Source of the DNA: Bacillota bacterium
Lineage (GTDB): Bacteria; Bacillota; Clostridia; RUG12999
Length of the DNA: 35,772 bases
Direction of reading: 5' to 3'
Assembly (NCBI GenBank): GCA_030705675.1
Contig: JAUZPZ010000005.1
Location: 1-35,772 of the forward strand
Below the pieces are notes generated by a model. It saw only the letters and a program-made list of their open reading frames with translations, was not told the origin of the DNA and searched no databases. Both the position numbers and the translations under genes were made by a program. Positions 6,960 to 24,376 of the stretch are shown one piece after another (the stretch's first letter is position 1; every line of letters begins with the position of its first letter).

Positions 6960-6974
6960 AAAAATATAGCCCCC

Positions 6975-8870
6975 TTAAATTTTATCATTTTTGATATAAT
7001 ATACTGTTGAAATCGGCGGTAATTTTATTTCGATAGATTGTTTATAACCATGCATTTCACATTCTTTTGATTTTGCTTTTCTAAGCCTTGTTCCCTTTCC
7101 TCCGTATTTTGCACTGTCACTTGAAAATACGGGTTTATATTCACCCGGCGAAGGAACCCCTATTTTATAATGTTCCCTTAAGACAGGGCAGAAATTGCAA
7201 ACAATAATTATTTCATTTCCCTTTTCATCTCTCCTCAGAAAAGATATTACGCTCTGATCGCTGTCGTCGTTAGATATCCATTGAAATCCACTCCAATCAA
7301 TATCATTTTCCCAAAAAGGCTTATGTTCGAGATAAAATTGATTGAGCTCCCGAACATATCTTTGCATTTGACTGTGACGTTCATAATCGAGCAAAAACCA
7401 TTCCAGTTCCTTCGAATAATCCCATTCGATAAACTGTGCAAATTCATTTCCCATAAAATTAATCTTTTTACCGGGATGTGACATCATAAAGCCATAAAGT
7501 GCCCTTAGATTGTCAAATTTATCATCATATTCACCCGGCATCTTACCTATCATTGAGCCTTTTCCGTGTACAACCTCATCGTGTGAAAGAGGCAGAACAA
7601 AATTTTCGGAAAACGCATAAGTAAGCGAAAAGGTCAAATCATTATGTCTTCCTTTTCTGAAAAGCGGATCGGCAGACATATACCCAAGTATATCATTCAT
7701 CCAACCCATGTTCCATTTAAGATTAAATCCAAGTCCTCCATCATATCCGGGTTTTGTAACCATCGGAAATGCTGTGGATTCTTCAGCTATCATAAGCACG
7801 GCGGGGTCAAATCTGAATGCCGCGCTGTTCATCTCGCGCAAAAAATTTATTGCTTCCAGATTATAGTTTCCTCCGTATTTATTCCGGCGCCAGCTGCCGT
7901 TCTTTCTGCCGTAATCTAAATACAGCATTGAAGCCACGGCGTCCACCCTTATTCCGTCAATATGAAACTTATCAAGCCAATAAACCACATTGGAAATAAG
8001 AAAGGATTTAACCTCATTTTTTGAATAATTAAAAATCCTCGTATTCCAGTCCGGATGCTCATTCATAAGTTTATCAGGCGACTCATACAAACATGTCCCG
8101 TCAAACTCATACAATCCGTTCTCATCCTTCGGAAAATGTGCTCCTACCCAATCCAAAATAACTCCTATGCCCGCTTCGTGCAATTTGTTAACAAATTTCA
8201 TGAAGTCATTAGGAGAGCCAAATCTTGACGTGGGGGCAAAATAACCTGTTACCTGATATCCCCATGATGGATCATAAGGATATTCACTGACCGGCAGAAG
8301 TTCAATATGTGTATATTTCATATTCTTAACATATTTTGCGAGATTATCCGCCATTTCTGCATAGGAAAAATAATCACCGTTCTCATGTTTTTTCCATGAA
8401 CCCAAATGTACCTCATAAATATTTATCGGTTGCTTTAACTGATCAACGTTACTCTTTGCCTTTTTATAATCACTATCGGTCCATTTAAAGCCGTCTATAT
8501 CATATACTTTTGAAGAATTTTCCGGACGTGTGCACGCGTGAAACGCGTAAGGATCGCTTTTATAGACACATCCTCCGGAATATTTGCCTATGCAGTATTT
8601 GTATTCATCGTAAATTTTTGCATTCTTTACGCTTATTTCCCAAATTCCCCACCCTACATTTTTCATAGGAGCGGCGTCTTTATTCCAGTCGTTAAAAGAC
8701 CCAACAAGGTTTACACTTGCGGCATTAGGCGCCCACACTCTGAAAGTATATCCTTCATCTGATTTATGACATCCCATAAATTCATATGCATTTGTACTTT
8801 TTCCATAGCTGAATTCCGACATACACGCATTTATATCTTTTATTTTTGATTTCGGCAACAATGGCTTCAC
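6975..8870 (-). CDS. glgB: 1,4-alpha-glucan branching enzyme
   Basis: CBM48 + GH13: YEVHLGSWKKHENG, DGIRVDAVASMLYLDYGR, LPLSHDEVVHGKGSMIGKMPG, INFMGNEFAQFIEWDY. Confidence 0.97.
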   Translation of the reverse strand: MKPLLPKSKIKDINACMSEFSYGKSTNAYEFMGCHKSDEGYTFRVWAPNAASVNLVGSFNDWNKDAAPMKNVGWGIWEISVKNAKIYDEYKYCIGKYSGGCVYKSDPYAFHACTRPENSSKVYDIDGFKWTDSDYKKAKSNVDQLKQPINIYEVHLGSWKKHENGDYFSYAEMADNLAKYVKNMKYTHIELLPVSEYPYDPSWGYQVTGYFAPTSRFGSPNDFMKFVNKLHEAGIGVILDWVGAHFPKDENGLYEFDGTCLYESPDKLMNEHPDWNTRIFNYSKNEVKSFLISNVVYWLDKFHIDGIRVDAVASMLYLDYGRKNGSWRRNKYGGNYNLEAINFLREMNSAAFRFDPAVLMIAEESTAFPMVTKPGYDGGLGFNLKWNMGWMNDILGYMSADPLFRKGRHNDLTFSLTYAFSENFVLPLSHDEVVHGKGSMIGKMPGEYDDKFDNLRALYGFMMSHPGKKINFMGNEFAQFIEWDYSKELEWFLLDYERHSQMQRYVRELNQFYLEHKPFWENDIDWSGFQWISNDDSDQSVISFLRRDEKGNEIIIVCNFCPVLREHYKIGVPSPGEYKPVFSSDSAKYGGKGTRLRKAKSKECEMHGYKQSIEIKLPPISTVYYIKNDKI

Positions 8871-8919
8871 CTCTTTATATCAAATTGTTATCTGTTTTTA
8901 GTAAATATTTCCTAATTTT

Positions 8920-8948
8920 ATTATACATTAAACATCTGTATTTGTCAA
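8920..8948 (-). promoter_or_regulatory. Sigma-A-type promoter for glgB-glgC-glgD-glgA-glgP operon
   Basis: On the minus strand TTGACA (8948-8943), 17 nt, TATAAT (8925-8920): both hexamers match consensus. Confidence 0.85.
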
Positions 8949-9013
8949 GGAACGGGCATATAATACTAAAGTAAGACGTTTGCCGAGTTTTAATGAATTT
9001 TAAATTATATTTA

Positions 9014-9022
9014 TGTTATAAT
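9014..9022 (+). promoter_or_regulatory. Extended -10 promoter candidate for malQ (TGTTATAAT)
   Basis: TGnTATAAT about 38 bp upstream of the malQ ATG; weak -35. Confidence 0.5.
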
Positions 9023-9059
9023 GATATTTGTAACTAATTATTCGTTGGAGGTTTTAAAA

Positions 9060-10493
9060 ATGGAAAGAAAAAGCGGTGTGCTGATGCATATTTCTTCTCT
9101 TAACGGAGATTATTCTATAGGCAGTTTCGGGGATGAGGCAAAATATTTCATAGATTTTCTTAAAGAATGCGGGTTCGGTTACTGGCAAGTACTTCCTTTC
9201 TGCCCTATTGATACCTGTAATTCGCCCTATAAATCCACCTCTACTTTTGGAGGCAACCTTTATTTTGTCAATCTTGACAAACTTTTTCAGAAAGGTCTTC
9301 TTACAAAAAATGAACTTCTGGCACAGCGTCAGCAAAATCCTTATACTTGCGAATTTGTTCGACTTTTCCATACAAGAATTGCCGTCCTTCTTACAGCTTC
9401 AAAGCGGATAAAAGACCGCCAAAAAATTGAGCAATTCATTTCAGAAAATCCTTACCTTGAGCGCTTTTGCGAATTTATGGCGCTTAAAGTCAGTAACAAT
9501 TATAAACCATGGTATCAATGGGATACCATGGAGTTTGACCAAAATATACTTTTTATGTGGAAATTTATTCAATACGAATTTTTTTCACAATGGTCAGAAA
9601 TAAAGAAATATGCAAATAAGAGCGGTATAAAAATAATAGGTGATATTCCTATTTATGTCGATCTCGACAGCTGCGACGTATGGTCAAATAAAGAGCTTTT
9701 TAAGTTAGATAAGCAAGACATCCCTACAAGTGTAGCAGGTGTTCCTCCCGATTATTTCTGTGCTGACGGTCAATTGTGGGGTAATCCCATATATGATTGG
9801 AAGGTCATGAAAGAAGACAATTACAAATGGTGGCGTGACCGTATAAATCATATGACAGGTATTTTTGACGGTGTACGCATTGATCATTTTCGTGGAATAG
9901 AATCTTTTTGGGAAATTCCCGCCGGCGCGGCTACGGCAAAGGAAGGCAAATGGTCAAAAGGTCCCGGAATGGAACTTGTAGATGCAATCAAAGAGGAATG
10001 CGGCGATGCTCTTATAATTGCGGAAGACCTCGGGGATATTACCCCCTCTGTTCGGAAACTGCTTAAAAAAAGTGAATTTCCGGGAATGCGCGTATTTCAG
10101 TTTGCCTTTCTTGGCGACGCTCTGTCCCCCCATCTTCCGCATAACTACACAAGCAACTGCATTGCTTATACAGGCACTCACGATAACAATACCTTACTTG
10201 GTTATATTTGGGAACTCAGCGAAAGCAACAGAAAATATATGCTGGAATACTGCGGACACAAAAACGAGGATTGGAGAAACGGCAGTGAAAGTATTATACG
10301 CACTATGTTTGCAAGCCATGCTGGAATTGTTATAATGCCTATCCAAGATTTGCTCGGATATGGTTCAGACACTCGCCTAAACATTCCCGGAAAACCGGAA
10401 GGAAACTGGCAATACCGTATAACTCAGCAGCAGCTTGACAGTATTGATCGAAAAAGATTCAGACGTCTTAATGAATTATATTCCAGAATTTAA
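9060..10493 (+). CDS. malQ: 4-alpha-glucanotransferase (GH77)
   Basis: MERKSGVLMHISSLNGDYSIGSFGDEA; GVRIDHFRGIESFWEIP; YTGTHDNNTLLGY. RBS ggagg at about 9047 supports the ATG at 9060 rather than the longer ORF start at 9021. Confidence 0.96.
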   Translation: MERKSGVLMHISSLNGDYSIGSFGDEAKYFIDFLKECGFGYWQVLPFCPIDTCNSPYKSTSTFGGNLYFVNLDKLFQKGLLTKNELLAQRQQNPYTCEFVRLFHTRIAVLLTASKRIKDRQKIEQFISENPYLERFCEFMALKVSNNYKPWYQWDTMEFDQNILFMWKFIQYEFFSQWSEIKKYANKSGIKIIGDIPIYVDLDSCDVWSNKELFKLDKQDIPTSVAGVPPDYFCADGQLWGNPIYDWKVMKEDNYKWWRDRINHMTGIFDGVRIDHFRGIESFWEIPAGAATAKEGKWSKGPGMELVDAIKEECGDALIIAEDLGDITPSVRKLLKKSEFPGMRVFQFAFLGDALSPHLPHNYTSNCIAYTGTHDNNTLLGYIWELSESNRKYMLEYCGHKNEDWRNGSESIIRTMFASHAGIVIMPIQDLLGYGSDTRLNIPGKPEGNWQYRITQQQLDSIDRKRFRRLNELYSRI

Positions 10494-10833: not shown

Positions 10834-10866
10834 GAAAAGGGTTGTACTTTAAGTACAACCCTTTTC
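10834..10866. terminator. Bidirectional-type hairpin terminator between convergent malQ and the pentapeptide gene
   Basis: GAAAAGGGTTGTACTT T AAGTACAACCCTTTTC, perfect 16-bp inverted repeat. Confidence 0.75.
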
Positions 10867-10869: not shown

Positions 10870-11508
10870 TTACTTTATTTTTACACCAAGAAATTTTGAA
10901 AGTTCCATAAGTTGAGTAGCGTCAACAATTGCGCCCTCAAGTTCAAATCCGTGCATAAGAATTCCTCTTATATTGCATGTGGATATATCGATTCCGTCTA
11001 ATTTTGCTCTGCCAAAATTACTCTCGCTTAAATTACAGAAGTCAAACTTTATATTCTGAAAATTACATCCGTACATACCCGCGCTTGTCATATCACAATT
11101 TTCAAACACTGTATTTCTCATTCCCGAATCGCTGAAGTTTGCAAAATCCATTCTGCAATTTTCAAAAGAGCTGTTTCCCACAAACATCCGAGTCATCTTT
11201 ATTCCCGTACATTTACTGTCGGTCATCTTTACCCTTTGAAAAGCCGCATTGTCAAAATGTACATTTGAAACATCACAATCAATAAAATTGCAATCCGTAA
11301 ACTGCGTGTTATCAAAATTACAATTTATAAAACGGCAACCTTCAAACTCGCAGAATACAAACTCGGTTTTTTCGCCAACAAGCTCTTCGACGGTCAGATT
11401 TTTAAAATGCTTATGCTTTATGTTCCGCCGCAACTTTTTACTTTCTTCAAGAAGCTGTTTTAAATCTGTTTCCTTTGTTACGGGTTGGGATTCACTTACA
11501 TATTTCAT
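10870..11508 (-). CDS. Pentapeptide repeat protein
   Basis: Repeated A/C-(D/N)-(L/F/M)-x-x pattern: CEFEGCRFINCNFDNTQFTDCNFIDCDVSNVHFDNAAF...; single beta-helix-type protein. Confidence 0.9.
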   Translation of the reverse strand: MKYVSESQPVTKETDLKQLLEESKKLRRNIKHKHFKNLTVEELVGEKTEFVFCEFEGCRFINCNFDNTQFTDCNFIDCDVSNVHFDNAAFQRVKMTDSKCTGIKMTRMFVGNSSFENCRMDFANFSDSGMRNTVFENCDMTSAGMYGCNFQNIKFDFCNLSESNFGRAKLDGIDISTCNIRGILMHGFELEGAIVDATQLMELSKFLGVKIK

Positions 11509-11576: not shown

Positions 11577-13313
11577 TTAAATATATTGCTTTCTTGCTTG
11601 ATAATGTGTGTGAAGAAGCTCATGTGCCTTATGACTTCCGGGTTTTTCAAAATATTCGTCATAAATCTTCTTGATAGCCGGATTTTCATGAGACTTACGT
11701 ACCGAAAGAATAGTGTCTTCCTTGTAAAGTCCCTTAGCGCGTACAGCCCTTACATCGACCTCGGAATAAACCTTAGAACTTACTATGGGTTGTCCTCCAC
11801 CTGTTACACATCCGCCGGGGCAAGCCATAATTTCAATAAAATGATACTCGGCTTTACCTGCTTTAATATCGTCAAGCAGCTTTCTTGCATTTGCAAGACC
11901 GCTCGCAACCGCAACATTTATATCCATTCCGCCAATATTTACAGTTGCCGTTTTTATTCCCTTTGTTCCTCTGACAACCTCAAAATCAATATTGTCAAGC
12001 GGTTTGTTTTCAACAATTTCCTTAACTGTACGAAGCGCCGCTTCCATAACACCGCCTGTTGCGCCAAAAATAACGCCGGCACCGGAGCCTATACCAAAGA
12101 TATCGTCAAAATCTTCATCAGCAATATTCACAAAATCAATACCAGCAGTTTTGATCATTGAAGCAAGTTCTCTTGTTGTGATAACCGCATCAACATCACG
12201 CTCTCCGCCAACTTCCATTTCGTCTCTGCCGCATTCAAACTTCTTAGCTGTACATGGCATTATAGACACCGTAAAGATTTTTTTGGGGTCAATACCCTTC
12301 TTTTCGGCATAATAAGTCTTCATAACAGCCCCAAACATTTGATGTGGTGATTTACATGACGAAAGATTTGGAATAAATTCAGGGTAAAAATGCTCACAGA
12401 ATTTAATCCAACCGGGTGAACAGGATGTAATGAGCGGGAACGGACCGCCGTTTTTAATTCTTTCAAGAAGCTCTGTTCCTTCTTCCATAATTGTAAGGTC
12501 GGCACTGAAGTCTGTATCCAAAACCTCATCAAAGCCAAGTCTTCTCATAGCGGCTGCCATTTTTCCTGTTACGCACTTACCCATTTCCATGCCGAATTCT
12601 TCGCCAAGAGCCGCTCTTACGGCAGGAGCCGCCTGAATTACAACATGTTTTTCTGGATCTGCAAGAGCGTCCCATACTACCTGTGTGGAATTCTTTTCAT
12701 ACAGAGCGCCAACCGGACAAGCAGCTATACACTGACCGCAGTTTACACACGGAGTATCGGCAAGTTTCATATCAAATGCGGAACCTATTCTTGTATTAAT
12801 TCCACGATATGCAACATCAATAACCCCTACTGTCTGAACGTTTTTACAAACGCTTACACAGCGGCGGCAAAGTATGCATTTATTGTTATTGCGAACTACG
12901 GAGGGAGAAGCATCATCTATTTCAGCTTCTTTTTTGTTGCCTTCGTACGGAATTTCCGTTATTCCCAAATCATCTGCAAGTTTCTGCAGCTCACAATTTC
13001 TGTTTCTTGGGCAGGTAAGACAGTTCCTGTCATGGTCGGAAAGAATAAGCTCCACTGTAGATTTCCTCGCTCTTCTTACAGACGGAGAGTTTGTAAATAC
13101 TTCCAGACCTTCGGCAACAGGATATACGCATGCGGCCTGAAGGGCCCTTGCTCCTTTAATTTCAACAATACATACCCGGCAGGCACCAATCTGGTTAATG
13201 TCCTTAAGGTAGCAAAGTGTCGGTATATTTATATTAACTTTTTTTGCAGCTTCCAGCACTGTTGTCCCTTCGGGCACAGATACCGCTTTGCCGTCTATCG
13301 TTAAATTTACCAT
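11577..13313 (-). CDS. hndD: [FeFe] hydrogenase catalytic subunit, NAD(P)-linked bifurcating type (HndD/HydA-like)
   Basis: N-terminal 2Fe-2S (CYLKDINQIGACRVC), CxxxH/4Fe-4S domains, H-cluster motifs TSCSPGW, MPCTAKKFE, EIMACPGGCVTGGGQP; C-terminal small-subunit domain. Confidence 0.95.
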   Translation of the reverse strand: MVNLTIDGKAVSVPEGTTVLEAAKKVNINIPTLCYLKDINQIGACRVCIVEIKGARALQAACVYPVAEGLEVFTNSPSVRRARKSTVELILSDHDRNCLTCPRNRNCELQKLADDLGITEIPYEGNKKEAEIDDASPSVVRNNNKCILCRRCVSVCKNVQTVGVIDVAYRGINTRIGSAFDMKLADTPCVNCGQCIAACPVGALYEKNSTQVVWDALADPEKHVVIQAAPAVRAALGEEFGMEMGKCVTGKMAAAMRRLGFDEVLDTDFSADLTIMEEGTELLERIKNGGPFPLITSCSPGWIKFCEHFYPEFIPNLSSCKSPHQMFGAVMKTYYAEKKGIDPKKIFTVSIMPCTAKKFECGRDEMEVGGERDVDAVITTRELASMIKTAGIDFVNIADEDFDDIFGIGSGAGVIFGATGGVMEAALRTVKEIVENKPLDNIDFEVVRGTKGIKTATVNIGGMDINVAVASGLANARKLLDDIKAGKAEYHFIEIMACPGGCVTGGGQPIVSSKVYSEVDVRAVRAKGLYKEDTILSVRKSHENPAIKKIYDEYFEKPGSHKAHELLHTHYQARKQYI

Positions 13314-13327
13314 GATAATCCTCCTTT

Positions 13328-15121
13328 TTATTTCTTATAAATTGCATCAAACTTACAGTTTTCCATACAAACGCCGCACTTAATGCATTTATTTGTATCA
13401 ATAACGTACGGGCTCTTTATCTGCCCCGAAATAGCACCAGCGGGACATTTTTTGGAGCAAAGGCTGCAACCCTTACATTTTTCAGGGTTAATAATATAGT
13501 TTACAAGTGCCTTACATACGCCGGCAGGACATTTTTTATCCTTTATGTGTGCTATATATTCATCTTTAAAATATCTTAAAGTACTAAGCACAGGGTTTGG
13601 CGCCGTCTGACCGAGTCCGCACAGTGCGGAAGACTTGATAGAATAACAAAGTTCTTCAAGTTTGTCCAAATCCGCCATCTCTGCTTTTCCACTTGTAATT
13701 TTTTCAAGCATTTCAAGCAGTCTTTTTGTACCAATACGGCAAGGTGCGCATTTACCACATGACTCATCAACTGTAAATTCAAGAAAGAATTTAGCAATAT
13801 CCACCATACAGTTATCTTCATCCATTACTATAAGACCGCCGGAGCCCATCATCGAGCCTATTCTGATAAGCGAATCGTAATCGATTTCAGTATCGATAAG
13901 GCTTGCGGGTATACATCCTCCTGAAGGACCTCCTGTTTGAGCAGCTTTAAACTTCTTGCCGTTCGGAATGCCGCCGCCTATTTCCTCAACGATTTCGCGC
14001 AAAGTTGTACCCATGGGAACTTCAACAAGACCTGTATTGTTGATTTTTCCGCCCAGCGCGAATACCTTTGTTCCTTTACTTTTTTCTGTGCCTATGCTTG
14101 CAAACCAATCTGCCCCTTTATTTATAATAACCGGAATGTTTGCATATGTTTCAACATTATTAAGAATTGTCGGTTTCGCAAACAGTCCTTTTACAGCAGG
14201 GAAAGGAGGGCGTGGTCTGGGTTCTCCTCGATTTCCTTCGATTGAATTCATAAGAGCGGTTTCCTCACCGCATACGAAAGCACCTGCTCCAAGACGGATT
14301 TCAAGATCAAAATCAAAGCTGGTACCCAAAATACCTTTACCCAAAAGACCGTATTCCTTAGCCTGGTCAATTGCGATCTGAAGACGTTTTACAGCAATGG
14401 GATATTCGGCACGTATATAAATATAACCTTGATTTGCACCAATTGCATAACCGGCAATTGCCATAGCTTCAATTACAGTGTGCGGGTCGCCTTCAAGTAC
14501 GGACCTGTCCATAAATGCACCCGGGTCGCCTTCGTCGGCGTTACAACAGACATATTTCTGATCATTCTTTGACGCCGCCGCAAATTTCCATTTCAAACCT
14601 GTAGGGAAACCTGCACCTCCGCGTCCGCGAAGACCGGAAGCAAGCATTACTTCTATAACCTGTTCTGGTGTCATTTCCGTAAGAACCTTGCCAAGCGCCT
14701 GGTATGCGTCCACAGCGATTGCTTCTTTGATATTTTCCGGGTCTATAACACCGCAATTACGCAATGCGACACGCATCTGCTTTTTATAGAAATCCACTTC
14801 ACTAAGCGGCTTTATTTCATCTTTTTCGGAAGCTTCTTTATAAAGACATCTGTCAACTATACGTCCTTTAAGAAGATGTTCCTCAACAATTTCGGAAACA
14901 TCCTCTATCTTAACCATACTATAAAAGGATCCTTCCGGATAAACAATAACAACCGGACCCAGGGCGCACAGACCAAAACAACCTGTCTGAACTACTTTAA
15001 CTTCTTTTTCAAGCCCTTTTTCAGCAATTTGCTTTTCAAACTCGTCATGTATTTTAACGGAGCCGGATGATGTGCACCCTGTTCCTCCGCATATAAGTAC
15101 ATGTGCTCTGTAAATATTCAT
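13328..15121 (-). CDS. hndC: NADH-binding NuoF-like hydrogenase subunit (HndC/HydB-like)
   Basis: GLRGRGGAGFPTGLKW, NADEGDPGAFMDRSVLEGDPH, LGAGAFVCGEETALMNSIEGNRGEPRPRPPFP; N-terminal 2Fe-2S thioredoxin-like and C-terminal 2x[4Fe-4S]. Confidence 0.95.
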   Translation of the reverse strand: MNIYRAHVLICGGTGCTSSGSVKIHDEFEKQIAEKGLEKEVKVVQTGCFGLCALGPVVIVYPEGSFYSMVKIEDVSEIVEEHLLKGRIVDRCLYKEASEKDEIKPLSEVDFYKKQMRVALRNCGVIDPENIKEAIAVDAYQALGKVLTEMTPEQVIEVMLASGLRGRGGAGFPTGLKWKFAAASKNDQKYVCCNADEGDPGAFMDRSVLEGDPHTVIEAMAIAGYAIGANQGYIYIRAEYPIAVKRLQIAIDQAKEYGLLGKGILGTSFDFDLEIRLGAGAFVCGEETALMNSIEGNRGEPRPRPPFPAVKGLFAKPTILNNVETYANIPVIINKGADWFASIGTEKSKGTKVFALGGKINNTGLVEVPMGTTLREIVEEIGGGIPNGKKFKAAQTGGPSGGCIPASLIDTEIDYDSLIRIGSMMGSGGLIVMDEDNCMVDIAKFFLEFTVDESCGKCAPCRIGTKRLLEMLEKITSGKAEMADLDKLEELCYSIKSSALCGLGQTAPNPVLSTLRYFKDEYIAHIKDKKCPAGVCKALVNYIINPEKCKGCSLCSKKCPAGAISGQIKSPYVIDTNKCIKCGVCMENCKFDAIYKK

Positions 15122-15148
15122 TTCTTTTCCCCCTTAAGTCTTAAGTCT

Positions 15149-15520
15149 TTAGTCTTTAGCCGCACCGATTGTATACTCGGTAACGGGCTGTTTGTTAATA
15201 ATATGCTCTGCAACAATGCGAGCAACCTTATTTTCAGTCATGTGAACATATGTCACTTTTTCTTTGCCCGGCATAAAAACCTCAACGATGGGTTCCATGC
15301 GGCACATGCCTATACAACCTGTTTGTGTTACAGTAACATCAGAAAGTCCGCGTTTTGATACCTCTTTCAAAAACGCATTCATAACAGGTCTTGCGCCTGC
15401 CGCAATACCGCATGTAGCCATACCGATTACAACACGAACTCCCTCTTTATGTTCCTTTCGTAAATCAATCTGACCTTGTACTTCTTCACGCAGCTGCTTT
15501 AATTCTGCTAAACTCTTCAT
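15149..15520 (-). CDS. hndB: (2Fe-2S) ferredoxin / HndB-like subunit
   Basis: GMATCGIAAGARPVMNAFLKE...TQTGCIGMCRMEPIVEV: four-Cys thioredoxin-like ferredoxin pattern; next to NuoF-like gene. Confidence 0.9.
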   Translation of the reverse strand: MKSLAELKQLREEVQGQIDLRKEHKEGVRVVIGMATCGIAAGARPVMNAFLKEVSKRGLSDVTVTQTGCIGMCRMEPIVEVFMPGKEKVTYVHMTENKVARIVAEHIINKQPVTEYTIGAAKD

Positions 15521-15558
15521 AGTATCCTCCTTAAATTATAAAATCATTCTTAACATAT

Positions 15559-16101
15559 TTATATATTTGCATCTGCAAGACCCTCCGTAATATATTCAGA
15601 AATCCAGCTAAGAATTTCCGGAGTATTAAGCGGAACTTCCCCAAGAGCCTGCCTTATTTCTCTTGTATTTAAGACAAACTCTCTTTCCAGCTTGCGGTGC
15701 TTATACACATAATTTATATTGGGTGCCCCCGATATCAAAGTGACCATAGTTTCAGCCATATTCCCTATTGGGGCGCGATCAATGCTATCATATTCAAAAT
15801 ATGCCGAAAGCTTTGTGCCAACGCCTTGCTTTGAGTCAATATCGAGATGCCCCCCGCATTGAAGCGTGGCTGCCTCGAAAAGCGAAATTCCCATTCCTAC
15901 TTTTCTCGTAGTACGTGTAGTGGCAAAAGGATCTTTTACCCTCTTTAAAAACTCTTCGCTCATCCCGCAGCCATTATCGGATATAACAATTGAAAGAATA
16001 TTTGTTTCGGGATTTTCATCTATTGTTATGCAAATTTCGGTGGCTTCTGCCTTAATGGAATTTTGTACTATATCCAATATATGCAAAGATAATTCCTTCA
16101 C
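15559..16101 (-). CDS. Stand-alone HATPase (histidine-kinase-like ATP-binding) protein
   Basis: IVQNSIKAEAT (N box), ISDNGCGMSEE, KVGMGISLFEAATLQCGGHLDIDSKQGVGT; no DHp/His phosphoacceptor region. GTG start at 16101 (RBS GGTGG), ORF start 16140 is less likely because it overlaps the PHP gene. Confidence 0.85.
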   Translation of the reverse strand: MKELSLHILDIVQNSIKAEATEICITIDENPETNILSIVISDNGCGMSEEFLKRVKDPFATTRTTRKVGMGISLFEAATLQCGGHLDIDSKQGVGTKLSAYFEYDSIDRAPIGNMAETMVTLISGAPNINYVYKHRKLEREFVLNTREIRQALGEVPLNTPEILSWISEYITEGLADANI

Positions 16102-16105
16102 TTTT

Positions 16106-16798
16106 TCACCACCTGAACAATTCTTCCAGTTCACATTCAAGTATATTTTCCCTTGATGCTATATTTTTAAGATAATGAGCGTCCGAATTCTGAAGTATTT
16201 TATATTTTGCAAGATCCGTCCTGTTTAAAATATACTCACTTGTGTCGTCTACAAGATAGGACATTTCTATCCATTTTGCGTTAAGTTCTTCAGGTATAAA
16301 GCCAAGATTTGTAAGAATGCTGTATGAATGCCTGTCTACATGTGCCGGCATTGCAATTCCCCCTACGCTTTTTACCATTTTAAACAGTTTTTCAATAGGG
16401 ATAGTTGTCGGCGAAATAAGTAATTTCTCTTCTTCGCCTATAATATTATCATTCTCATCCATCAAAATCTGGCTTCCAAAAATTCTCGGATTATTTTTTA
16501 TCATGGGCAGATTTTTATACACAATATCCGCTATTTCCCGCGCACTTTCAATATCACGATAAAGCGTAAGCACATGCACTTCTTCCGCTGTTTCTATTTC
16601 CATACCCGGAATTACCGTGACCCCCAGCCTCTCTCCAACAATTTGTGCAGAACGTACATTGCCTATCGTATTGTGATCTGTAATGGCAATGGCGTTTACC
16701 CCTGCTATGTGTGCCATATTTACTATATTGTTAGGTGTCATTTCTTCATCTGCGCACGGAGACAAAACCGTGTGCAAATGAAAATCATATTTAATCAT
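16106..16798 (-). CDS. PHP domain phosphoesterase
   Basis: YDFHLHTVLSPCADEEMTPNNIV, AIAITDHNTIGN, MPAHVDRHSYS, NSDAHYLKNI: PHP metal-binding motifs. Confidence 0.9.
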   Translation of the reverse strand: MIKYDFHLHTVLSPCADEEMTPNNIVNMAHIAGVNAIAITDHNTIGNVRSAQIVGERLGVTVIPGMEIETAEEVHVLTLYRDIESAREIADIVYKNLPMIKNNPRIFGSQILMDENDNIIGEEEKLLISPTTIPIEKLFKMVKSVGGIAMPAHVDRHSYSILTNLGFIPEELNAKWIEMSYLVDDTSEYILNRTDLAKYKILQNSDAHYLKNIASRENILECELEELFRW

Positions 16799-17133
16799 AA
16801 TTCTATTACAGTGTGCAATTCTTTTGCAAGCTCATAGCTTGTTTTCTGCGAAGCAAGCACTACCACTCCTTGAAGATTTGCTTTTTTTATAACATTTTCG
16901 TCAGGAACGACCCCTTCAGTGAGCAATATACACGCTACGTCCGTAAGAGACGCAACCGCAACGATATTAATATTGCTCATAATAGTAATCCACACATTAC
17001 CGGGCTGAGCTTTACCCATGACCCAACTGAGCAGATCACCAATATATACGCCTGTTATTTCCTTGTCCTCATAATCCTCATCTGTCAACAGATTAAGATC
17101 AAGGTTTTTAATAAGTTCCGATATAACAACCAT
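16795..17133 (-). CDS. DRTGG-domain protein (paralogue 2)
   Basis: 112 aa; ITGVYIGDLLSWVMGKAQPGNVWITIMSNINIVAVASLTDVACILLTEGVVPDENVI: DRTGG-like fold as in small hydrogenase-linked proteins; similar to 19027..19395. Confidence 0.75.
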   Translation of the reverse strand: MVVISELIKNLDLNLLTDEDYEDKEITGVYIGDLLSWVMGKAQPGNVWITIMSNINIVAVASLTDVACILLTEGVVPDENVIKKANLQGVVVLASQKTSYELAKELHTVIEL

Positions 17134-17158
17134 ACGCTAATATCTCTCCATTCTATTT

Positions 17159-17310
17159 ATAAGAATTGAATTTGCAGTCATTTTAGTTCAAGCTCGTACA
17201 ATTCCATAAGAATTGAATTTACAGTCATTTTATTGACGCTCCTCAAGCTCATACAATTCTATAGATATTTCTTCCGAGCGTTCCAGCTCTCTTGCAGTCA
17301 TCTTACTTCC
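17159..17310 (-). repeat. Degenerate tandem triplication at the 3' end of the second hydrogenase gene
   Basis: On the minus strand three copies starting AARATGACTGYAA..., two carrying ATHTATRGAATTGTAYGAGCTTGA-type ends: 'AAGATGACTGCAAGAG...ATAGAATTGTATGAGCTTGA', 'AAAATGACTGTAAATTCAATTCTTATGGAATTGTACGAGCTTGA', 'AAAATGACTGCAAATTCAATTCTTAT'. Confidence 0.8.
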
Positions 17311-18609
17311 GTCTTTTTTATGACGCTCCGCTATCTCGTAAAGCTCCCTTGTAAGCTCCTTGACGTGTTCTCTTCTTTTAAATATGCAGTCGTATTCATT
17401 TGCAAAGCCGAGCACAATATCTTCTGAAAGTGCCCTGCACGTAGGCGCTCCACAAGAGCCGCAATCAAGATGTGGCAGAGTTTCACACATACGCTCAATC
17501 TGCTCCATTTTTTCAACGGCGCGTGCAAGGTCGGTGTCAAGATTCATTACATCGGACGAGTACAATTTCTTTTCCCACTTTACAATCTCCGGATCCACAT
17601 CGTTCACCGGTTCGGACTCTCCCGCCGCGGAGGCAATATTTTTAATATTATTTATACAAACATATGAATTTGTTACGTTTAAAGCCCCACCTACACATCC
17701 GCCGGGACATGCAAGCAATTCAGCAAACTTCACATCGGTAAGCTTTTCATCTTCAATGGCACTTAAAATATTTATTACATTTTGTATGCCATCAACCACG
17801 ATATAATTTTGAATACCGGTGCCATAGCTTTCGCCGCCCCTTCTTGCCCATGAAATGCCGGCAAAGCCCGCTTTAGCAAGATGTTTCGGTTCAATGTGTT
17901 TCATAACCGCAAGCAGTTTAGCATAGATGTCATTTACCGAAATTGCGCCGCTTACAGCTGATCTGTCAAGCAATCCAGACGCCTTTATGCTGGTCATCTT
18001 GGCAGGACAGGGGGTTATAAAAAATACCCCTATTTTTTCATCAGGTAAACCTGTTTTTTCTATTGCTTCTTTTCTTGCCATTTTTGCGGCAATTTCCATT
18101 GGAGAAAGAAGGTTTATCACATGATCTATCAGCCCCGGAAACCTGACGCTGATAAGTCTTATTACCGCAGGACACGCCGAACTGATTATGGGTTCTGGAA
18201 TTTTCCCTTCATCAAGTATTTTTTTGGTAGCAGAACTTACATATTCCGCGGCACGTGCAACCTCAAATACATTATCAAACCCTATTTCAAGCAAACCCGT
18301 CAAAACTTTATCAGCAGTTATACTGCTTCCAAACTGTCCGTAAAGCGCGGGAGCAGGCAGTGCAATATTATACTCATAATCATTAAGTATATCAAAAGAA
18401 TCGGTAACGGCGCGTTTGGCTCTGTAAGGGCATACCCTTATACATTCACCGCAGTCGATACATCTTTCCTTTATTATTTTTGCCTTTCCGCCCCTGACTC
18501 TTATAGCTTCCGTAGGACAATGCTGCAAACAATTCGTGCAGCCGCGACATCTTTCTTTATCCAATGTAACGGAGTGATAGTATGCCACTATGCCACACCT
18601 CGCTTTCAA
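17230..18609 (-). CDS. Divergent [FeFe] hydrogenase large-subunit domain protein, putative sensory type (HydS-like)
   Basis: N-terminal 2x[4Fe-4S] (CRGCTNCLQHCP, CIDCGECIRVCP), H-cluster region with SSACPAV, TPCPAK, ELLACPGGCVGG, then C-terminal [4Fe-4S] (LPHLDCGSCGAPTCRALSEDIV). Start may be the internal region MxxYHSVTLDKERC; kept as ORF start. Confidence 0.88.
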   Translation of the reverse strand: MKARCGIVAYYHSVTLDKERCRGCTNCLQHCPTEAIRVRGGKAKIIKERCIDCGECIRVCPYRAKRAVTDSFDILNDYEYNIALPAPALYGQFGSSITADKVLTGLLEIGFDNVFEVARAAEYVSSATKKILDEGKIPEPIISSACPAVIRLISVRFPGLIDHVINLLSPMEIAAKMARKEAIEKTGLPDEKIGVFFITPCPAKMTSIKASGLLDRSAVSGAISVNDIYAKLLAVMKHIEPKHLAKAGFAGISWARRGGESYGTGIQNYIVVDGIQNVINILSAIEDEKLTDVKFAELLACPGGCVGGALNVTNSYVCINNIKNIASAAGESEPVNDVDPEIVKWEKKLYSSDVMNLDTDLARAVEKMEQIERMCETLPHLDCGSCGAPTCRALSEDIVLGFANEYDCIFKRREHVKELTRELYEIAERHKKDGSKMTARELERSEEISIELYELEERQ

Positions 18610-18632
18610 TTACACAGTCTTTATAAAACTGT

Positions 18633-19043
18633 CTAAAGGTTCACGGTAAGTGTTACAGTTGTTCCCTTACCGACTTCAGTATCTATTTTCATACTATCCG
18701 TATATTTCTTTATATTAGGTAATCCCATTCCGGCACCAAAGCCGAGTTCCCTTATAGTTTCACTCGCCGTTGAATATCCTTCCTGCATTGCAAGCTCTAC
18801 ATTGGCAATTCCAGGTCCATGGTCAGTGAAAACTATTTTTACGCAGTTATCCAACACCTCGGCGTCACACTCTCCGCCTCTGCCGTGAACAACCGTATTT
18901 ATTTCCGCCTCATACATTGCAATTGCAACTTTTCTTACAATATCAGGCTTTATTCCAAGTTTTTTAAGAAGCGTCTTAAAATCACTTGACGCCTCTCCGG
19001 CGACAGAAAAGTCGGTACCTGAAATATTATAGTGTTTCCGCAC
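18633..19043 (-). CDS. RsbW/RsbT-type ATP-binding protein (anti-sigma-factor-like kinase)
   Basis: VRKVAIAMYEAEINTVVHGRGGECDAEVLDNCVKIVFTDHGPGIANVELAMQEGYSTASETIRELGFGAGMGLPNIKKYTDSM: GHKL ATPase motifs. GTG at 19043 with upstream GGGGGA favoured over ORF start 19070. Confidence 0.88.
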   Translation of the reverse strand: MRKHYNISGTDFSVAGEASSDFKTLLKKLGIKPDIVRKVAIAMYEAEINTVVHGRGGECDAEVLDNCVKIVFTDHGPGIANVELAMQEGYSTASETIRELGFGAGMGLPNIKKYTDSMKIDTEVGKGTTVTLTVNL

Positions 19044-19395
19044 AGCCTCTTCCCCCAAGTCCCTTTTCATACAGCATTCCGCATGCCATATAAAGCGGAT
19101 AATTCGTTGTAATAAGAGTTATTCCCCTATCAACGGCAAGATCAATTACTTCTCTTGGAGGAACCTTTCCTCTTACAAAGCATATTGCAACAATATCCAT
19201 CATTTCAGCTGTACGAATCACCTGAGGATTAATAAGTCCCGTGAGCAAAAGAGTCTGATCTTTTACAAAAGCAAGCACATCGCTCATCAGGTCACACCCA
19301 CAGGCGGTAAATATATCAATTTCATCTAGCACACTCTCTGTTTCTCCGGTGAGAACTTCCGCACCGAGTGTAGCCTTAACATGAGATAATTTCAT
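19027..19395 (-). CDS. DRTGG-domain protein (paralogue 1)
   Basis: 122 aa; VFTACGCDLMSDVLAFVKDQTLLLTGLINPQVIRTAEMMDIVAICFVRGKVPPREVIDLAVDRGITLITTNYPLYMACGMLYEKGL. Confidence 0.75.
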   Translation of the reverse strand: MKLSHVKATLGAEVLTGETESVLDEIDIFTACGCDLMSDVLAFVKDQTLLLTGLINPQVIRTAEMMDIVAICFVRGKVPPREVIDLAVDRGITLITTNYPLYMACGMLYEKGLGGRGCAETL

Positions 19396-19422
19396 AAGTT
19401 TTCTGTCCCTTCCCGGAATTTA

Positions 19423-19923
19423 TTATGCGGATATATATTTCTCTAAAATTGAAGCGACGTCATTTGCGACAAGTTTTCCGTAAACTTCATCGTTAACCGT
19501 CATTACGGGCGCAAGTCCGCATGCTCCGATACAACGTGTTGCATCGAGAGAAAACTTGCCGTCTTCCGTACATTTACCAACCTCTATTTTAAGTTTTTTC
19601 TTGATTTCCTCAAGTATTTTTCCAGAACCTTTTACATAACACGCCGTACCAAGGCAGACTCCAACTGCATATTCGCCCTTAGGATACAGTGTAAACTGCG
19701 CATAAAAAGTTACAACGCCGTAAACTTCTGTAAGCGAAAGACCAAGGCTGTCCGCAATAACTTTCTGAACTTCAATTGGAAGATAACCGTAAATATTTTG
19801 TGCCTGATGAAGAATAGGAATCAGCGCACCCGGGACATCTTTGTTTTTTGCAATAGCTTCATTTAGCTTTTCTTCCTGCTCTTTTGTCCCCTTAAATTCA
19901 ATAGTACTTTTCAAGCTCATTTC
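19423..19923 (-). CDS. hndA: NuoE-like 2Fe-2S hydrogenase subunit (HndA/HydC-like)
   Basis: GALIPILHQAQNIYGYLPIEVQKVIADSLGLSLTEVYGVVTFYAQF, VCLGTACYVKGSGKILEEI, RCIGACGLAPVMTVNDEVYG. RBS aggagg supports start at 19923 (MSLKSTIEFKG). Confidence 0.95.
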   Translation of the reverse strand, partial: EMSLKSTIEFKGTKEQEEKLNEAIAKNKDVPGALIPILHQAQNIYGYLPIEVQKVIADSLGLSLTEVYGVVTFYAQFTLYPKGEYAVGVCLGTACYVKGSGKILEEIKKKLKIEVGKCTEDGKFSLDATRCIGACGLAPVMTVNDEVYGKLVANDVASILEKYISA

Positions 19924-19952: not shown

Positions 19953-19970
19953 TTGTTATTTTTTTAACAT
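19953..19970. promoter_or_regulatory. Rex-like operator candidate in the leader of the hydrogenase operon
   Basis: TTGTTA-N6-TAACAT, one mismatch from the perfect inverted repeat TTGTTA-N6-TAACAA; lies between the promoter and hndA start. Confidence 0.45.
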
Positions 19971-20014: not shown

Positions 20015-20043
20015 ATTATACAACATTTACATCAAAAAGTCTA
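20015..20043 (-). promoter_or_regulatory. Promoter candidate of the hydrogenase operon
   Basis: Minus strand TAGACT (20043-20038), 17 nt, TATAAT (20020-20015). Confidence 0.65.
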
Positions 20044-20191: not shown

Positions 20192-20695
20192 ATGCCTGAT
20201 AATGGTTACGACCGTATTGCCGCAGTAGAATATGCTCGAAAATGGGCATTCAGCCGCAACCCTGATTATATAGATTTTCACGGTCTCGGCGGAGATTGTA
20301 CAAACTTTGTTTCGCAATGCCTTTATGCCGGAGGTGGGGTCATGAATTTTACTCCGATTTTCGGATGGTATTATATTTCTTCATACAACCGCACTGCATC
20401 ATGGACGGGTGTGGAATATTTCTATAATTTTATGGTAAATAACGAAGGTGCCGGTCCTTATGCTACAGAAACCGATCAATATGGTATGGAAATAGGAGAT
20501 GTAATTCAGCTTGAGGGGGAAGGTTTAGATATTTTTACACATACATTGCTTGTTACCCGTGTAGTCGAAACGCCCGAAATACATATTCTGGTAAGTGCTC
20601 ATACCAATGACGCTTTTATGCGGCCGCTTTCCAGCTATTCTTATGATAATATAAGATATTTGCATATTGAAGGAGTACGGCCAAACGTAGTATAA
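20192..20695 (+). CDS. Amidase-domain (Amidase_6-like) protein, no signal peptide
   Basis: RIAAVEYARKWAFSRNPDYIDFHGLGGDCTNFVSQCLYAGGGVMNF; conserved Cys (GDCTNFVSQ) and His (THTLLVTRV); RBS gaggtgg. Confidence 0.88.
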   Translation: MPDNGYDRIAAVEYARKWAFSRNPDYIDFHGLGGDCTNFVSQCLYAGGGVMNFTPIFGWYYISSYNRTASWTGVEYFYNFMVNNEGAGPYATETDQYGMEIGDVIQLEGEGLDIFTHTLLVTRVVETPEIHILVSAHTNDAFMRPLSSYSYDNIRYLHIEGVRPNVV

Positions 20696-20730
20696 ATTAT
20701 TTATTGGTATAAACTTTTACCCATAACTCC

Positions 20731-20773
20731 AAACTGCCCCGGTTTATGTTATACGCACAAACCAGGGCAGTTT
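20731..20773 (+). terminator. Rho-independent terminator downstream of the amidase-domain gene
   Basis: AAACTGCCCcGGTTT ... AAACCaGGGCAGTTT followed by ATTTATATTTT. Confidence 0.8.
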
Positions 20774-20967
20774 ATTTATATTTTATAATTATGTTATAAA
20801 TATCAATGCTATGGTGAAAAAAGCAAATTTTATAAAACCACACTAATAAAAATAAACCCCCCATGAAAATAGCTCCTGAAATATTTTATTATTTCAAGTG
20901 TTGCCTTCACGGGGATTAATTTTCTGTTTTAAAAAAGTTTTAAAGCCATTTTTCACTTCTTGTCTTT

Positions 20968-21807
20968 TTATTGAAGAACTCTGCAAAGCTTGCATCCATC
21001 ACATTTCCCTACTCTGCCTTCAAATATTTTTTCGACAGTCTGAGCAATTTCATGTTTCATAAACTGTCTGTTGTGAATTATTATTTTCCGCGGATTTTTT
21101 GTTATAAGTATGCTTACAAGCAAATCCTCGCTTTCATAGCCTGCTCCGAATTCCTCCGCCGCTTCCATCTCAAATTCTCCTTTAAGCGGCTTCTCTCTGC
21201 TATCATAATAAATATACTCTCTGTTCTCGGTAACCACAATATTCAAGACATCAATTTCATGAGGCTGAACGCTTACATATGCTTTAAGCAGTTCGATAAA
21301 CTCATCATATTCTTTTCGCATAAGGAAATTATCGGCGCTGTAATCTATTAAATCCTCCAGCTCCTTGCTGTAGTCTTGAAGCCTGAAAGGAAGGAACCCG
21401 TCAAGGTTAAGCACCCTTTTTTCATCAAAATAATTGTCAATAACCGTTTCTATTATTCTGTTTCTCCTTAAAACAAAAAGCTTGTCATGAATATCTTCTT
21501 CATTGTGTATTGAGTTGCGTATACTTTCCGTAAGTCTACGCTTTTCGTCGCCATTAAAGAAAGTGTATCCTTCCGCAATTATACGAACTATTTCACGTTC
21601 CTCAAAATTATCCACAATGTAACCGCGTGCGGTCTCGCTTATTGCTCGACGCGCATTTCTTTCTTCTGTTTCATTAAAAACACACTCCACGCCACCGCCG
21701 GTTTCCTTTACTTTTGCAGACGCGTTTTTGCTTTCCAGTGCGCCGCAAAGTTTTTTAAACAGCTCTGATGTGTCGCCGCTTGTGTGCAACACCACTTTGG
21801 TCTGCAA
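20968..21807 (-). CDS. ytxC: YtxC-like putative sporulation protein
   Basis: 279 aa; ESEDLLVSILITKNPRKIIIHNRQFMKHEIAQTVEKIFEGRVGKCDGCKLC resembles the YtxC C-terminal region from memory. Confidence 0.7.
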   Translation of the reverse strand: MQTKVVLHTSGDTSELFKKLCGALESKNASAKVKETGGGVECVFNETEERNARRAISETARGYIVDNFEEREIVRIIAEGYTFFNGDEKRRLTESIRNSIHNEEDIHDKLFVLRRNRIIETVIDNYFDEKRVLNLDGFLPFRLQDYSKELEDLIDYSADNFLMRKEYDEFIELLKAYVSVQPHEIDVLNIVVTENREYIYYDSREKPLKGEFEMEAAEEFGAGYESEDLLVSILITKNPRKIIIHNRQFMKHEIAQTVEKIFEGRVGKCDGCKLCRVLQ

Positions 21808-21819
21808 TTAAAATCACCC

Positions 21820-22506
21820 TTAAATTACAATAATACTGCCAATGTCGGCTAACTTATCATTGGATAAGCATACAATTTCTATACATTTATTTTTACAGAA
21901 ATTTTTTATTTTTTCAAAATCCGAATGCATTGTAACATCTCCGGTAAAATAAAGTTTGCCGTCAAAATACCCGCTTGCGCCACCTATAAACCCATATTCT
22001 TTACCAAAAAGAGTAATTTCACCTTCTGAAATGCGAAGCACGTCTATCCCCGTTTTTTCCACAGCTGTGGCTATTCCTTTGTCTGAAGTTATTATCCCAT
22101 CCGGAAGCGTACACACCGAACATTTGGAATAGCCCTGGTGTACATTTATTTGCGTATATTTCCCACCCATTGCCCTGATAATTTCAAAATCCGTAAATTT
22201 GAAATTATGTATGGCGGCGCTTGCTGTCATTGCTACATTATATGCAATATATTTTGGGTATTTACCTTGTACCCGCGTCTTTCCGCAAATAAAGTTGACG
22301 CCTGAAAATGCCTTTTTATAATGTTTTTCGCTTCCCGGATTTACTATTATTTCCTCTCCCACTTTAAGTATCTGCATATCTGGATGCCCTGCAACAGAAG
22401 GGTCAATATCATTTATAAAATCCGCTTCTATTACCTTAAACCCGGCTTTTTCAAGACCGTAAATTATTTTTTTATCCGCCCTCGGATCAAGTATCACATA
22501 GCGCAT
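21820..22506 (-). CDS. Conserved hypothetical protein (possibly DUF6873 family)
   Basis: MRYVILDPRADKKIIYGLEKAGFKVIEA...HPDMQILKVGEEIIVNPGS...NVHQGYSKCSVCTLPDGIITSDKGIA; RBS GAAGG before ATG at 22506. Family name from memory only. Confidence 0.6.
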   Translation of the reverse strand: MRYVILDPRADKKIIYGLEKAGFKVIEADFINDIDPSVAGHPDMQILKVGEEIIVNPGSEKHYKKAFSGVNFICGKTRVQGKYPKYIAYNVAMTASAAIHNFKFTDFEIIRAMGGKYTQINVHQGYSKCSVCTLPDGIITSDKGIATAVEKTGIDVLRISEGEITLFGKEYGFIGGASGYFDGKLYFTGDVTMHSDFEKIKNFCKNKCIEIVCLSNDKLADIGSIIVI

Positions 22507-22554
22507 AAGTTTCACCTTCGTTTCATTTATACTTTTATTTTAACTTATATAAGC

Positions 22555-22584
22555 AAAAAAGGCAAGCTTAAAAAAGCCTGCCTT
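22555..22584 (-). terminator. Rho-independent terminator of the RraA-end operon
   Basis: Minus strand AAGGCAGGC-loop-GCTTGCCTTTTTT. Confidence 0.8.
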
Positions 22585-22715
22585 AATTTTTATTTATATA
22601 AAATTATATAAATATGTTCAAGATTAAACTCACCGTCTTAAAATAACCTTTATTTTAAGTTGGTGCGCTTTCTCCACAAAAGCCGTCAAATCAGCCGTAT
22701 ATTTTCTCGTATATC

Positions 22716-23618: not shown

Positions 23619-23635
23619 TGTAATTCACCTTTCGC

Positions 23636-24364: not shown

Positions 24365-24376
24365 AATACCATTTCC

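Follow-up and report, generated by a model that had tools for sequence, protein, structure and literature searches.

Background

Group D (M2e) [FeFe] hydrogenases are known from loci in which they lie upstream of bifurcating hydrogenases, with a kinase gene in between and a possible regulatory role (PMC3561251, PMC3608648, PMC3492117 and PMC8163306). Published examples are Cthe_0335 with Cthe_0340-0342, Athe_1292 with Athe_1297-1299 and TTE0887 with TTE0892-0894 (PMC3561251), where a sensory hydrogenase stands upstream of a trimeric bifurcating hydrogenase and a kinase is encoded between them. The same elements occur in the locus analysed here, at 11577-19923 on the minus strand of contig JAUZPZ010000005.1 from a Bacillota bacterium of the GTDB lineage RUG12999 (assembly GCA_030705675.1, 1.92 Mb in 225 contigs). 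The window, as we use the word, is the whole of this 35,772-nt contig (G000:C171).

The characterised group D protein TamHydS, from Thermoanaerobacter mathranii, turns over H2 with a relatively low Km and has sensor-like properties (PMC8163306), and H2 is reported to alter its secondary structure (PMC13104023). According to the latter paper, a sensory function is unproven for any group D member, and its closing section calls the identification of interaction partners critical (2026). Group D proteins have been purified and studied for years without a known signalling partner. An earlier note on this DNA had allowed that the neighbourhood may not be new, and the regulatory idea was indeed in print by 2012 (PMC3561251, PMC3492117; then PMC3608648, PMC8163306). 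The window is a rearranged member of this already known locus type, and the family-level evidence renders the open question directly testable.

Two separable gene blocks around a sensory-type hydrogenase

The locus comprises eleven minus-strand genes, encoding in order NuoE, DRT1, RsbW, HydS, DRT2, PHP, HATPase, Trx, NuoF, HydA and a pentapeptide-repeat protein. Open reading frame (ORF) order and domain matches bear out the order and strand of the first ten genes, and the pentapeptide gene after them, as given in the earlier note, which had read the locus as a HndABCD hydrogenase operon split by a six-gene signalling module. We surveyed about 140 loci, 80 of them close loci from a scan of GTDB genomes and 60 further regions from a 300-genome sample of the phylum. 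As that reading had anticipated, the module was conserved and linked around the sensory-type hydrogenase. The order DRT1-RsbW-HydS-DRT2-PHP (the sensory block) was nearly universal, and NuoE-HATPase-Trx-NuoF-HydA (the hydrogenase block) formed a second unit in nearly all loci.

Since the HATPase gene lies between nuoE and trx in nearly all relatives, it belongs to the hydrogenase block, and the embedded block has five genes, not six. Its membership of the sensory block was rejected for most loci on the same grounds; where the hydrogenase is absent (L094, L096, L104, L128-L130), the HATPase remains with the sensory block. The layout with NuoE first was confined to the window's family. There each of the seven loci that were read (L154-L160, from three genera) shows it, and the HydS proteins of the window, L004 and L005 group in a single clade (support 99/98). 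A single rearrangement in this family is the simplest explanation. The split operon is thus real as a layout, but it is a lineage-specific rearrangement of two separable blocks, predicted to place the sensory block behind the nuoE promoter with its Rex-type site.

In the 300-genome sample, DRT1 was present in 117 of 120 HydS-bearing genomes against 10 of 180 without HydS, the HATPase in 114 of 120 against 11 of 180, and group A6 HydA in 110 of 120 against 97 of 180, all counts that ignore kinship. The arrangement is beyond chance, as follows from the DRT1 figures. Among the 107 loci with sufficient flanks, the two blocks stood in tandem in 80 and divergently in 12, and 15 had no NuoF within the fetched flank. 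This separability is what would be expected if block and hydrogenase were merely adjacent in the window genome, an idea that is hardly credible given the excess of A6 HydA in HydS-bearing genomes, the presence of both blocks side by side, in tandem or divergently, in 92 of 107 loci from dozens of families, and the layout kept in every window-family locus read.

The full module with its hydrogenase was also seen in a metagenome-assembled genome labelled Candidatus Sumerlaeota (L053) and in Coprothermobacter (L038), which reflects either inter-phylum transfer or mislabelled bins.

HydS, the second hydrogenase

HydS (17230-18588, minus strand; PF02906, 113.8 bits) has, by Pfam, two N-terminal 4Fe-4S motifs (PF13237/PF00037), an H domain and a C-terminal iron-sulfur domain (PF04060) with the pattern Cx2Cx4Cx16C (C383, C386, C391, C408). 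The H-cluster ligands C146, C201, C301 and C305 are kept in the window protein and in 79 of 79 relatives, and all four are present in all 79 + 11 HydS proteins checked. At the position of the proton-relay cysteine C299 the window has A145 (Ala in 78 and Ser in 1 of the 79), at that of M353 it has T199 (Thr in 48, Ser in 31), and at that of M497 it has Leu. In a tree with A6 and PAS-type proteins, the window HydS fell into a 27-sequence clade of block-associated proteins (support 100/99) that includes Thermoanaerobacter wiegelii; long branches meet in this tree, and we claim the clade of its own but not the deeper branching order. Judged by the M2e residue features (criteria from PMC8163306), the lack of a PAS domain and the clade shared with a congener of TamHydS, HydS is assigned to group D (M2e) as a putative sensory hydrogenase of a known kind. 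Assignment to the PAS-type group C (M2f) was rejected: the Pfam scan gave no PAS domain, and the ORF ends about 50 aa past the iron-sulfur domain.

Start codons were judged from the starts of homologues together with upstream purine-rich stretches. HydS probably starts at the conserved GTG 18588, the TTG 18609 of the ORF list probably making the protein too long, and the HATPase probably at GTG 16101, the start in the ORF list again being too early.

Further hydrogenases of related kinds were seen. Four loci (L095, L108, L127, L138) have a second, longer HydS-like protein of a non-D clade within 10 kb of a group D block, and L143 carries such a longer protein in the same genome as a block. The window's own genome encodes a third [FeFe] hydrogenase on another stretch (L002 1387-2856, minus strand), by appearance of the monomeric group B type.

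The RsbW-like protein and natural fusions

RsbW (18633-19070, minus strand) is an RsbW/SpoIIAB-like GHKL protein and a putative Ser/Thr kinase (PF13581, 40.6 bits), which aligns to SpoIIAB (1til). E54, N58 and the G1/G2 glycines are at least 97% conserved, and the ATP-site and general-base residues E54, N58, D83, G85, G87, G112, G114 and G116 are conserved as in SpoIIAB. Scores to the curated equivalogs stayed below cut-off, with 55.5 bits to TIGR01925 (anti-sigma F; cut-off 135) and 24.3 against 145 for another.

Four kinds of fusion join members of the module. RsbW and HydS form a single protein in family f112, with frames of 601-637 aa in 14 of 14 genomes from 5 genera; both domains were read in 11 loci (L144-L153, L123), for example at L145 922-2832. 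In these fusions no ligand of the iron-sulfur clusters or the H-cluster is lost, nor any of the ATP-site residues checked, and DRT2, NuoE and HATPase follow. DRT1 is joined to RsbW in L105, L118 and L138 (matching frames of 270-314 aa in families f44, f96 and f74), HydS to DRT2 in L095 (an equally long frame in G112; two genera, one family), and PHP to HATPase in L086 and L137 (frames of 425-441 aa in further f19 genomes; one family). Apparent DRT1-RsbW fusions in L078/L079 proved to be over-extended starts in another frame and were not counted. The fusion pattern and the gene content of f112 point to a core of RsbW, HydS and DRT2, with the HATPase as a putative addition, and the fused frames support direct coupling between HydS and the kinase. 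They thereby name partner candidates in the sequence, namely the RsbW-type GHKL protein, DRT1, DRT2 and the PHP-HATPase pair. The 601-637-aa fusion of f112 is moreover a single recombinant protein suited to assaying H2-dependent kinase activity.

A further fusion was seen in L096 (10673-11581, minus strand), where tandem CBS domains are joined to an RsbW-like protein, an architecture that suggests an adenine-nucleotide input.

DRTGG proteins, PHP and the stand-alone HATPase

DRT1 (19027-19395, minus strand), the first gene product of the sensory block, scored 16.8 bits to the Pfam DRTGG family, below the cut-off of 25.2. Its model (predicted local distance difference test score, pLDDT, 88) gave Foldseek matches to 2ioj (TM 0.79) and 3l31/3l2b, and hhalign supported its homology to DRT2 (E 1e-19); by predicted fold, DRT1 appears to be a DRTGG protein despite the sub-threshold score. 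DRT2 (16795-17133, minus strand) passed the same cut-off with 39.3 bits to PF07085. S38 and D39 of DRT1 occur in 135 of 135 homologues, and D33, S36 and N56 of DRT2 in 148 of 148. When the two proteins are aligned, an invariant D-x-x-S falls at the same position in both (S38; S36), a candidate phospho-acceptor or ligand site. In the N-terminal half, where this segment lies, sequence searches gave no match to solved DRTGG proteins.

The PHP-family protein (16106-16798, minus strand; PF02811, 35.5 bits, cut-off 26.4) is predicted to be a metal-dependent phosphoesterase, with the metal ligands H7, H9, D41, H42, E67, H75, H153, D206 and H208 (HxH, DH, E, H, H, DxH) at least 97% conserved. The stand-alone GHKL ATPase (15559-16101, minus strand; PF02518, 58.4 bits) has a conserved start at 16101 and a C-terminal alpha/beta extension, and begins about 5 residues before its first helix (model pLDDT 87). 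Neither GHKL protein has room for a DHp domain, as had been proposed. A classical two-component system was rejected on this ground and on the lack of a response regulator recurring beside the block.

A rival view does without signalling: HydS would be a slow valve hydrogenase, and the DRTGG, PHP and GHKL proteins would help to assemble or repair the flavo-iron-sulfur complex or serve its nucleotide housekeeping. MutL/Hsp90-type ATPases are GHKL proteins too, the HATPase model fits MutL and kinases to a similar degree, and many PHP proteins are nucleases or small-molecule phosphatases. We consider this view very unlikely, given an RsbW protein that has the ATP site of SpoIIAB and is fused to HydS, the occurrence of the HydS block without NuoF nearby and as a conserved sensor-plus-GHKL pair, and the sensor-like properties of TamHydS (PMC8163306).

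The module accompanies a ferredoxin/NAD(P)H node

The enzymes beside the module are not limited to hydrogenase. In seven loci (L100, L101, L109, L131, L140, L086, L137), the catalytic subunit after NuoF is a NuoG-N + molybdopterin oxidoreductase with an in-frame TGA instead of a hydrogenase, and this NuoEF-linked enzyme is a probable selenocysteine formate dehydrogenase. An Rnf complex follows the module in another seven (L093, L096, L119, L089, L091, L103, L105), three of them without NuoF, and NfnAB-type genes lie near it in L113 and L132. Rex genes recur beside the sensory block. No conserved output gene recurred beside the block in close loci, where neighbours were lineage-specific (for example groEL and prfC-like GTPases), and no sigma factor, anti-anti-sigma factor or response regulator was recurrent there; the links to Rex, Rnf, Nfn and formate dehydrogenase emerged from the wider sample. 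The enzymes found beside the module thus belong to the ferredoxin/NAD(P)H node at large. The link to the bifurcating hydrogenase proposed earlier holds, but the module is not a device for HndABCD alone.

Among these loci, the Rnf operon stands directly after DRT2 in L093 and directly after PHP in L119. L113 and L132 also have RseC-type and Rex genes and, by sequence appearance only, a formate-tetrahydrofolate ligase gene.

The formate dehydrogenase, Rnf and Nfn neighbours weaken a purely H2-specific reading. HydS might instead equilibrate with ferredoxin, seeing H2 only indirectly, so that the module would inform the bifurcating enzyme at hand, of whatever kind, about the pool of low-potential electrons. 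The recurrence of Rex genes next to the module and the two N-terminal [4Fe-4S] clusters and the C-terminal cluster always kept in HydS would suit such a redox switch. A pure ferredoxin sensor would have no need of the four H-cluster ligands retained throughout, and TamHydS does turn over H2 (PMC8163306); we regard this alternative as somewhat doubtful, though a real contender.

Rex and transcription

A Rex-operator-like site, ATGTTAAAAAAATAACAA, matching 12 of the 14 positions of TTGTTAANNNNTTAACAA, lies at 19953-19970 on the minus strand, about 46 nt before the nuoE start, and is the only match with at most two mismatches in the window. Five genomes of the window's family, including its own, have a Rex-type site (12-13 of 14) 45-61 nt before nuoE (the relatives being L004/L157, L005/L159, L158 and L160); none was found before nuoE in genus g221 (L154, L156). 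The window genome has one Rex gene, on another contig. Across the survey, at least 12 of 14 clostridial Rex operator positions were matched before nuoE in 21 of 96 loci, compared with 0.9% in shuffles, and an operator match stood before DRT1 in 7 of 122. The gap between PHP and nuoE in tandem loci has a median of 146 nt. In C. thermocellum, DNA affinity purification sequencing (DAP-seq) placed Rex at a hydrogenase operon of five genes, Clo1313_1885-1881, whose orthologue is Athe_1295-1299 (PMC8457756). The number of genes and their locus tags are those expected for NuoE-HATPase-Trx-NuoF-HydA, and HydS (Athe_1292, PMC3561251) lies outside this operon.

Expression of the hydrogenase block is therefore probably set by Rex. 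From these sites and the DAP-seq result we infer that the hydrogenase operon was ancestrally under Rex and that the sensory block would later have moved behind a Rex-type promoter in the window's family. With Rex in this role, the module has less need to act on transcription, and an output after translation becomes the likelier one. Of the two outputs proposed earlier, on activity or on expression of HndABCD, activity is thus favoured and expression less likely. The module had also been expected to be co-conserved and co-transcribed with hndABCD: it is co-conserved, but the blocks are separable, each seems ancestrally to have had a promoter of its own, and in published data the expression of Cthe_0335 does not follow that of Cthe_0340-0342 (PMC3478167).

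The literature's two-component or regulatory-hydrogenase reading would make the module a transcriptional partner switch, in which HydS releases an RsbW-like anti-sigma factor or kinase and H2 alters transcription of the hydrogenase operon. Transcriptional control is proposed in PMC3561251, PMC3492117 and PMC8163306, the RsbW-like protein does score 55 bits to anti-sigma F, and a STAS protein was present in 34 of 38 module-bearing genomes examined. That score is, however, far below the equivalog cut-off of 135. STAS (PF01740, E 0.01) had no match in the window genome, an absence that is not absolute in a 225-contig assembly, and none in three further HydS-bearing genomes (G308, G167, G266), so that the standard anti-anti-sigma partner appears absent in these four. 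With the lack of recurrent sigma-pathway genes or response regulators beside the block, the Rex-type sites, the Rex binding in C. thermocellum and the non-parallel expression of HydS and HydABC genes (PMC3478167) added, we judge this switch unlikely.

A proposed hydrogen- or redox-gated kinase switch

The ATP site of RsbW, the apparent lack of a STAS partner in the window's genome and three others, the DRTGG homologues with their invariant serine and the pairing of PHP with HATPase together favour a gated kinase switch. H2 or the redox state of ferredoxin would change the conformation of HydS, and the RsbW-like kinase attached to it would become more or less active in response. In place of the usual STAS partner, this kinase would have the DRTGG proteins as regulators or substrates, and PHP and HATPase may provide opposing or relaying phospho-chemistry. 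The output would fall mainly on the activity of the nearby HydABC, formate dehydrogenase, Rnf or Nfn flavoenzymes, while Rex would set the transcription of these NAD(P)H/ferredoxin enzymes according to NADH. We hold it evenly balanced whether the module is such an H2- or redox-gated GHKL kinase switch on the ferredoxin/NAD(P)H enzymes nearby, with DRTGG partners and Rex-set transcription; its output probably does not run through transcription, a two-component system or a STAS pathway.

Several observations weigh against this switch. A HydS encoded next to a formate dehydrogenase is no less compatible with a sensor of the general redox state than with one of H2. The relay from hydrogenase to kinases and DRTGG proteins suggested in the earlier note gains backing for the coupling through the fusions, but kinase activity, H2-dependent signalling, substrate and target are inferred from sequence, and a fusion is a functional association that gives no direction of signal. 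In family f112 neither DRT1 nor PHP was seen next to HydS, and several other loci lack PHP; the relay thus does not require all six proteins. About 15 of 107 loci have no NuoF in the flank that was fetched, so that the enzyme encoded next to the block is not necessarily its target, and the relatedness of the sampled sequences means that Fisher p-values for co-occurrence overstate independence. In C. thermocellum, the expression of Cthe_0335 does not parallel that of Cthe_0340-0342 (PMC3478167): Cthe_0340-0342 is unresponsive where other hydrogenases respond and Cthe_0335 behaves unlike other FeFe hydrogenases (PMC3478167, PMC3492117), which argues against simple co-regulation, and HydABC protein levels did not change under the tested conditions (PMC3492117).

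More tentatively still, and with less than even confidence, the gated kinase switch may be an undescribed system, in which an RsbW-type serine kinase takes its input directly from a group D hydrogenase domain (one polypeptide in f112), a DRTGG phospho-switch replaces STAS, a PHP-HATPase pair supplies the counter-activity, and electron-bifurcating and ferredoxin:NAD enzymes are controlled generally. Our literature search found no paper combining DRTGG with an FeFe hydrogenase. As far as the literature searched shows, it is new to have all members of the module described, together with the finding that the blocks can separate, the gene fusions, the clients other than hydrogenase and the rearranged operon. 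Should the switch be confirmed, fermentative production of H2 and formate would be subject to a hydrogen- or redox-dependent check in 120 of the 300 sampled genomes of the phylum. Such control would matter for the way hydrogen is handled in gut and rumen and for engineering the production of biohydrogen and ethanol.

The predicted bifurcating hydrogenase and other features of the window

The hydrogenase subunits are all on the minus strand. NuoE/HndA, the [2Fe-2S] subunit (19423-19923; PF01257, 173.9 bits), has a ribosome-binding site (aggagg) before ATG 19923. Trx/HndB (15149-15520), a thioredoxin-like [2Fe-2S] protein, reached 21.4 bits to PF01257, below the cut-off of 24.8, and has invariant cysteines. 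NuoF/HndC, the FMN/NAD subunit (13328-15121; PF01512, PF10589), scored 509 bits to TIGR01959 (below the cut-off of 559) and 403 to NF010120 (above the cut-off of 389). HydA/HndD (11577-13313) was classed as a group A6 NADH-dependent [FeFe] hydrogenase (NF040763, 932.5 bits, cut-off 765); its closest solved relatives are 7q4v and 8a6t, HydA1 of multi-subunit hydrogenases, of which 8a6t is named electron-bifurcating. With NuoE and NuoF partners present, HydABC/HndABCD is classed by sequence as a group A6 hydrogenase, and bifurcation is predicted. HydA residues 296-302 read TSCSPGW where CpI has TSCCPGW, a normal group A6 feature since 7q4v also has TSCSPGW.

The eleven-gene run is bounded by a promoter-like site (20043-20015) and a terminator hairpin (10866-10834). 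The former, earlier called a clear promoter, is a putative sigma-70-type site (TAGACT-17-TATAAT; 20015-20043, minus strand) that does match at 10 of 12 positions, its place before nuoE being its only other support; with 28 matches of this kind, the region shows no excess over chance, which would give 25. The hairpin (10834-10866, minus strand) is intrinsic-terminator-like with a 15-bp stem. Genes within the run overlap or are narrowly spaced, with the exception of the HydS-DRT2 gap of about 97 bp. A tandem duplication lies between HydS and DRT2 (17159-17232; 27-nt copies, 96% identical, 47-bp spacing), and a related 18-nt unit is also found at 17292-17309, within the end of HydS. The last gene of the run, outside the module, encodes the pentapeptide-repeat protein (10870-11508, minus strand; PF13599, 77.7 bits); in the survey such a gene was found downstream of hydA only in the window and L004.

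An Rfam scan of the window gave no match. Glycogen/starch genes adjoin the operon on the plus strand (4645-10493): two GlgC/D-type nucleotidyltransferases, a branching enzyme and a 4-alpha-glucanotransferase. Upstream of the operon (20192-25735) are genes for Amidase_6 (plus strand), YtxC-like, DUF6873 and RraA-like proteins, a short-chain dehydrogenase and a GH10 enzyme.

Comparison with known systems

The DRTGG domain of CBS-pyrophosphatases (3l31/3l2b) and AF1212 (2ioj) shares its fold with the DRT1 model (TM 0.79), and the CBS-RsbW fusion of L096 echoes the CBS-DRTGG pairing of the regulated pyrophosphatases. Unlike those proteins, the DRTGG proteins of the module are stand-alone and have the invariant D-x-x-S segment. 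With the anti-sigma serine kinases SpoIIAB/RsbW, the window's RsbW-like protein has in common the GHKL architecture and the N-box, G1 and G2 residues; it differs in falling below the NCBI equivalog cut-offs, in having a hydrogenase as its genetic partner and in the lack of a detectable STAS partner.

The group C (M2f) proteins TmHydS, R. albus HydS and HfsB (PMC10055695, PMC11837493) resemble the window HydS in lacking the proton-relay cysteine and in having a C-terminal iron-sulfur domain, and both kinds are encoded near kinases or phosphatases and bifurcating hydrogenases. The window protein, in contrast, ends after the iron-sulfur domain without PAS and forms a separate clade. Closer to it is TamHydS (PMC8163306, PMC13104023), which likewise has no PAS domain, no Cys at the C299 position, Ser/Thr at M353, Leu at M497 and a Cx2Cx4Cx16C C-terminus, and is of the same subclass by motif and tree. 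Its gene, too, adjoins a heterotrimeric bifurcating hydrogenase and a histidine-kinase-like ATPase; in the passages of the two papers that were searched we found no description of DRTGG, PHP or RsbW partners. Its congener T. wiegelii (L006) has the full run DRT1-RsbW-HydS-DRT2-PHP-NuoE-HATPase-Trx-NuoF-HydA. The HydS proteins of the window and of T. wiegelii share 54% identity, and the window's block has moved inside the hydrogenase operon, behind nuoE.

At the Cthe, Athe and TTE loci, the locus-tag spacing would accommodate DRT2, PHP, NuoE and HATPase between the sensory hydrogenase and the trimeric enzyme, and an Acetivibrio relative (L019) has exactly this order, HydS, DRT2, PHP, NuoE, HATPase. 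In C. thermocellum and Athe the hydrogenase block is a separate five-gene Rex operon (PMC8457756), whereas the window has the sensory block downstream of both nuoE and the Rex-type site.

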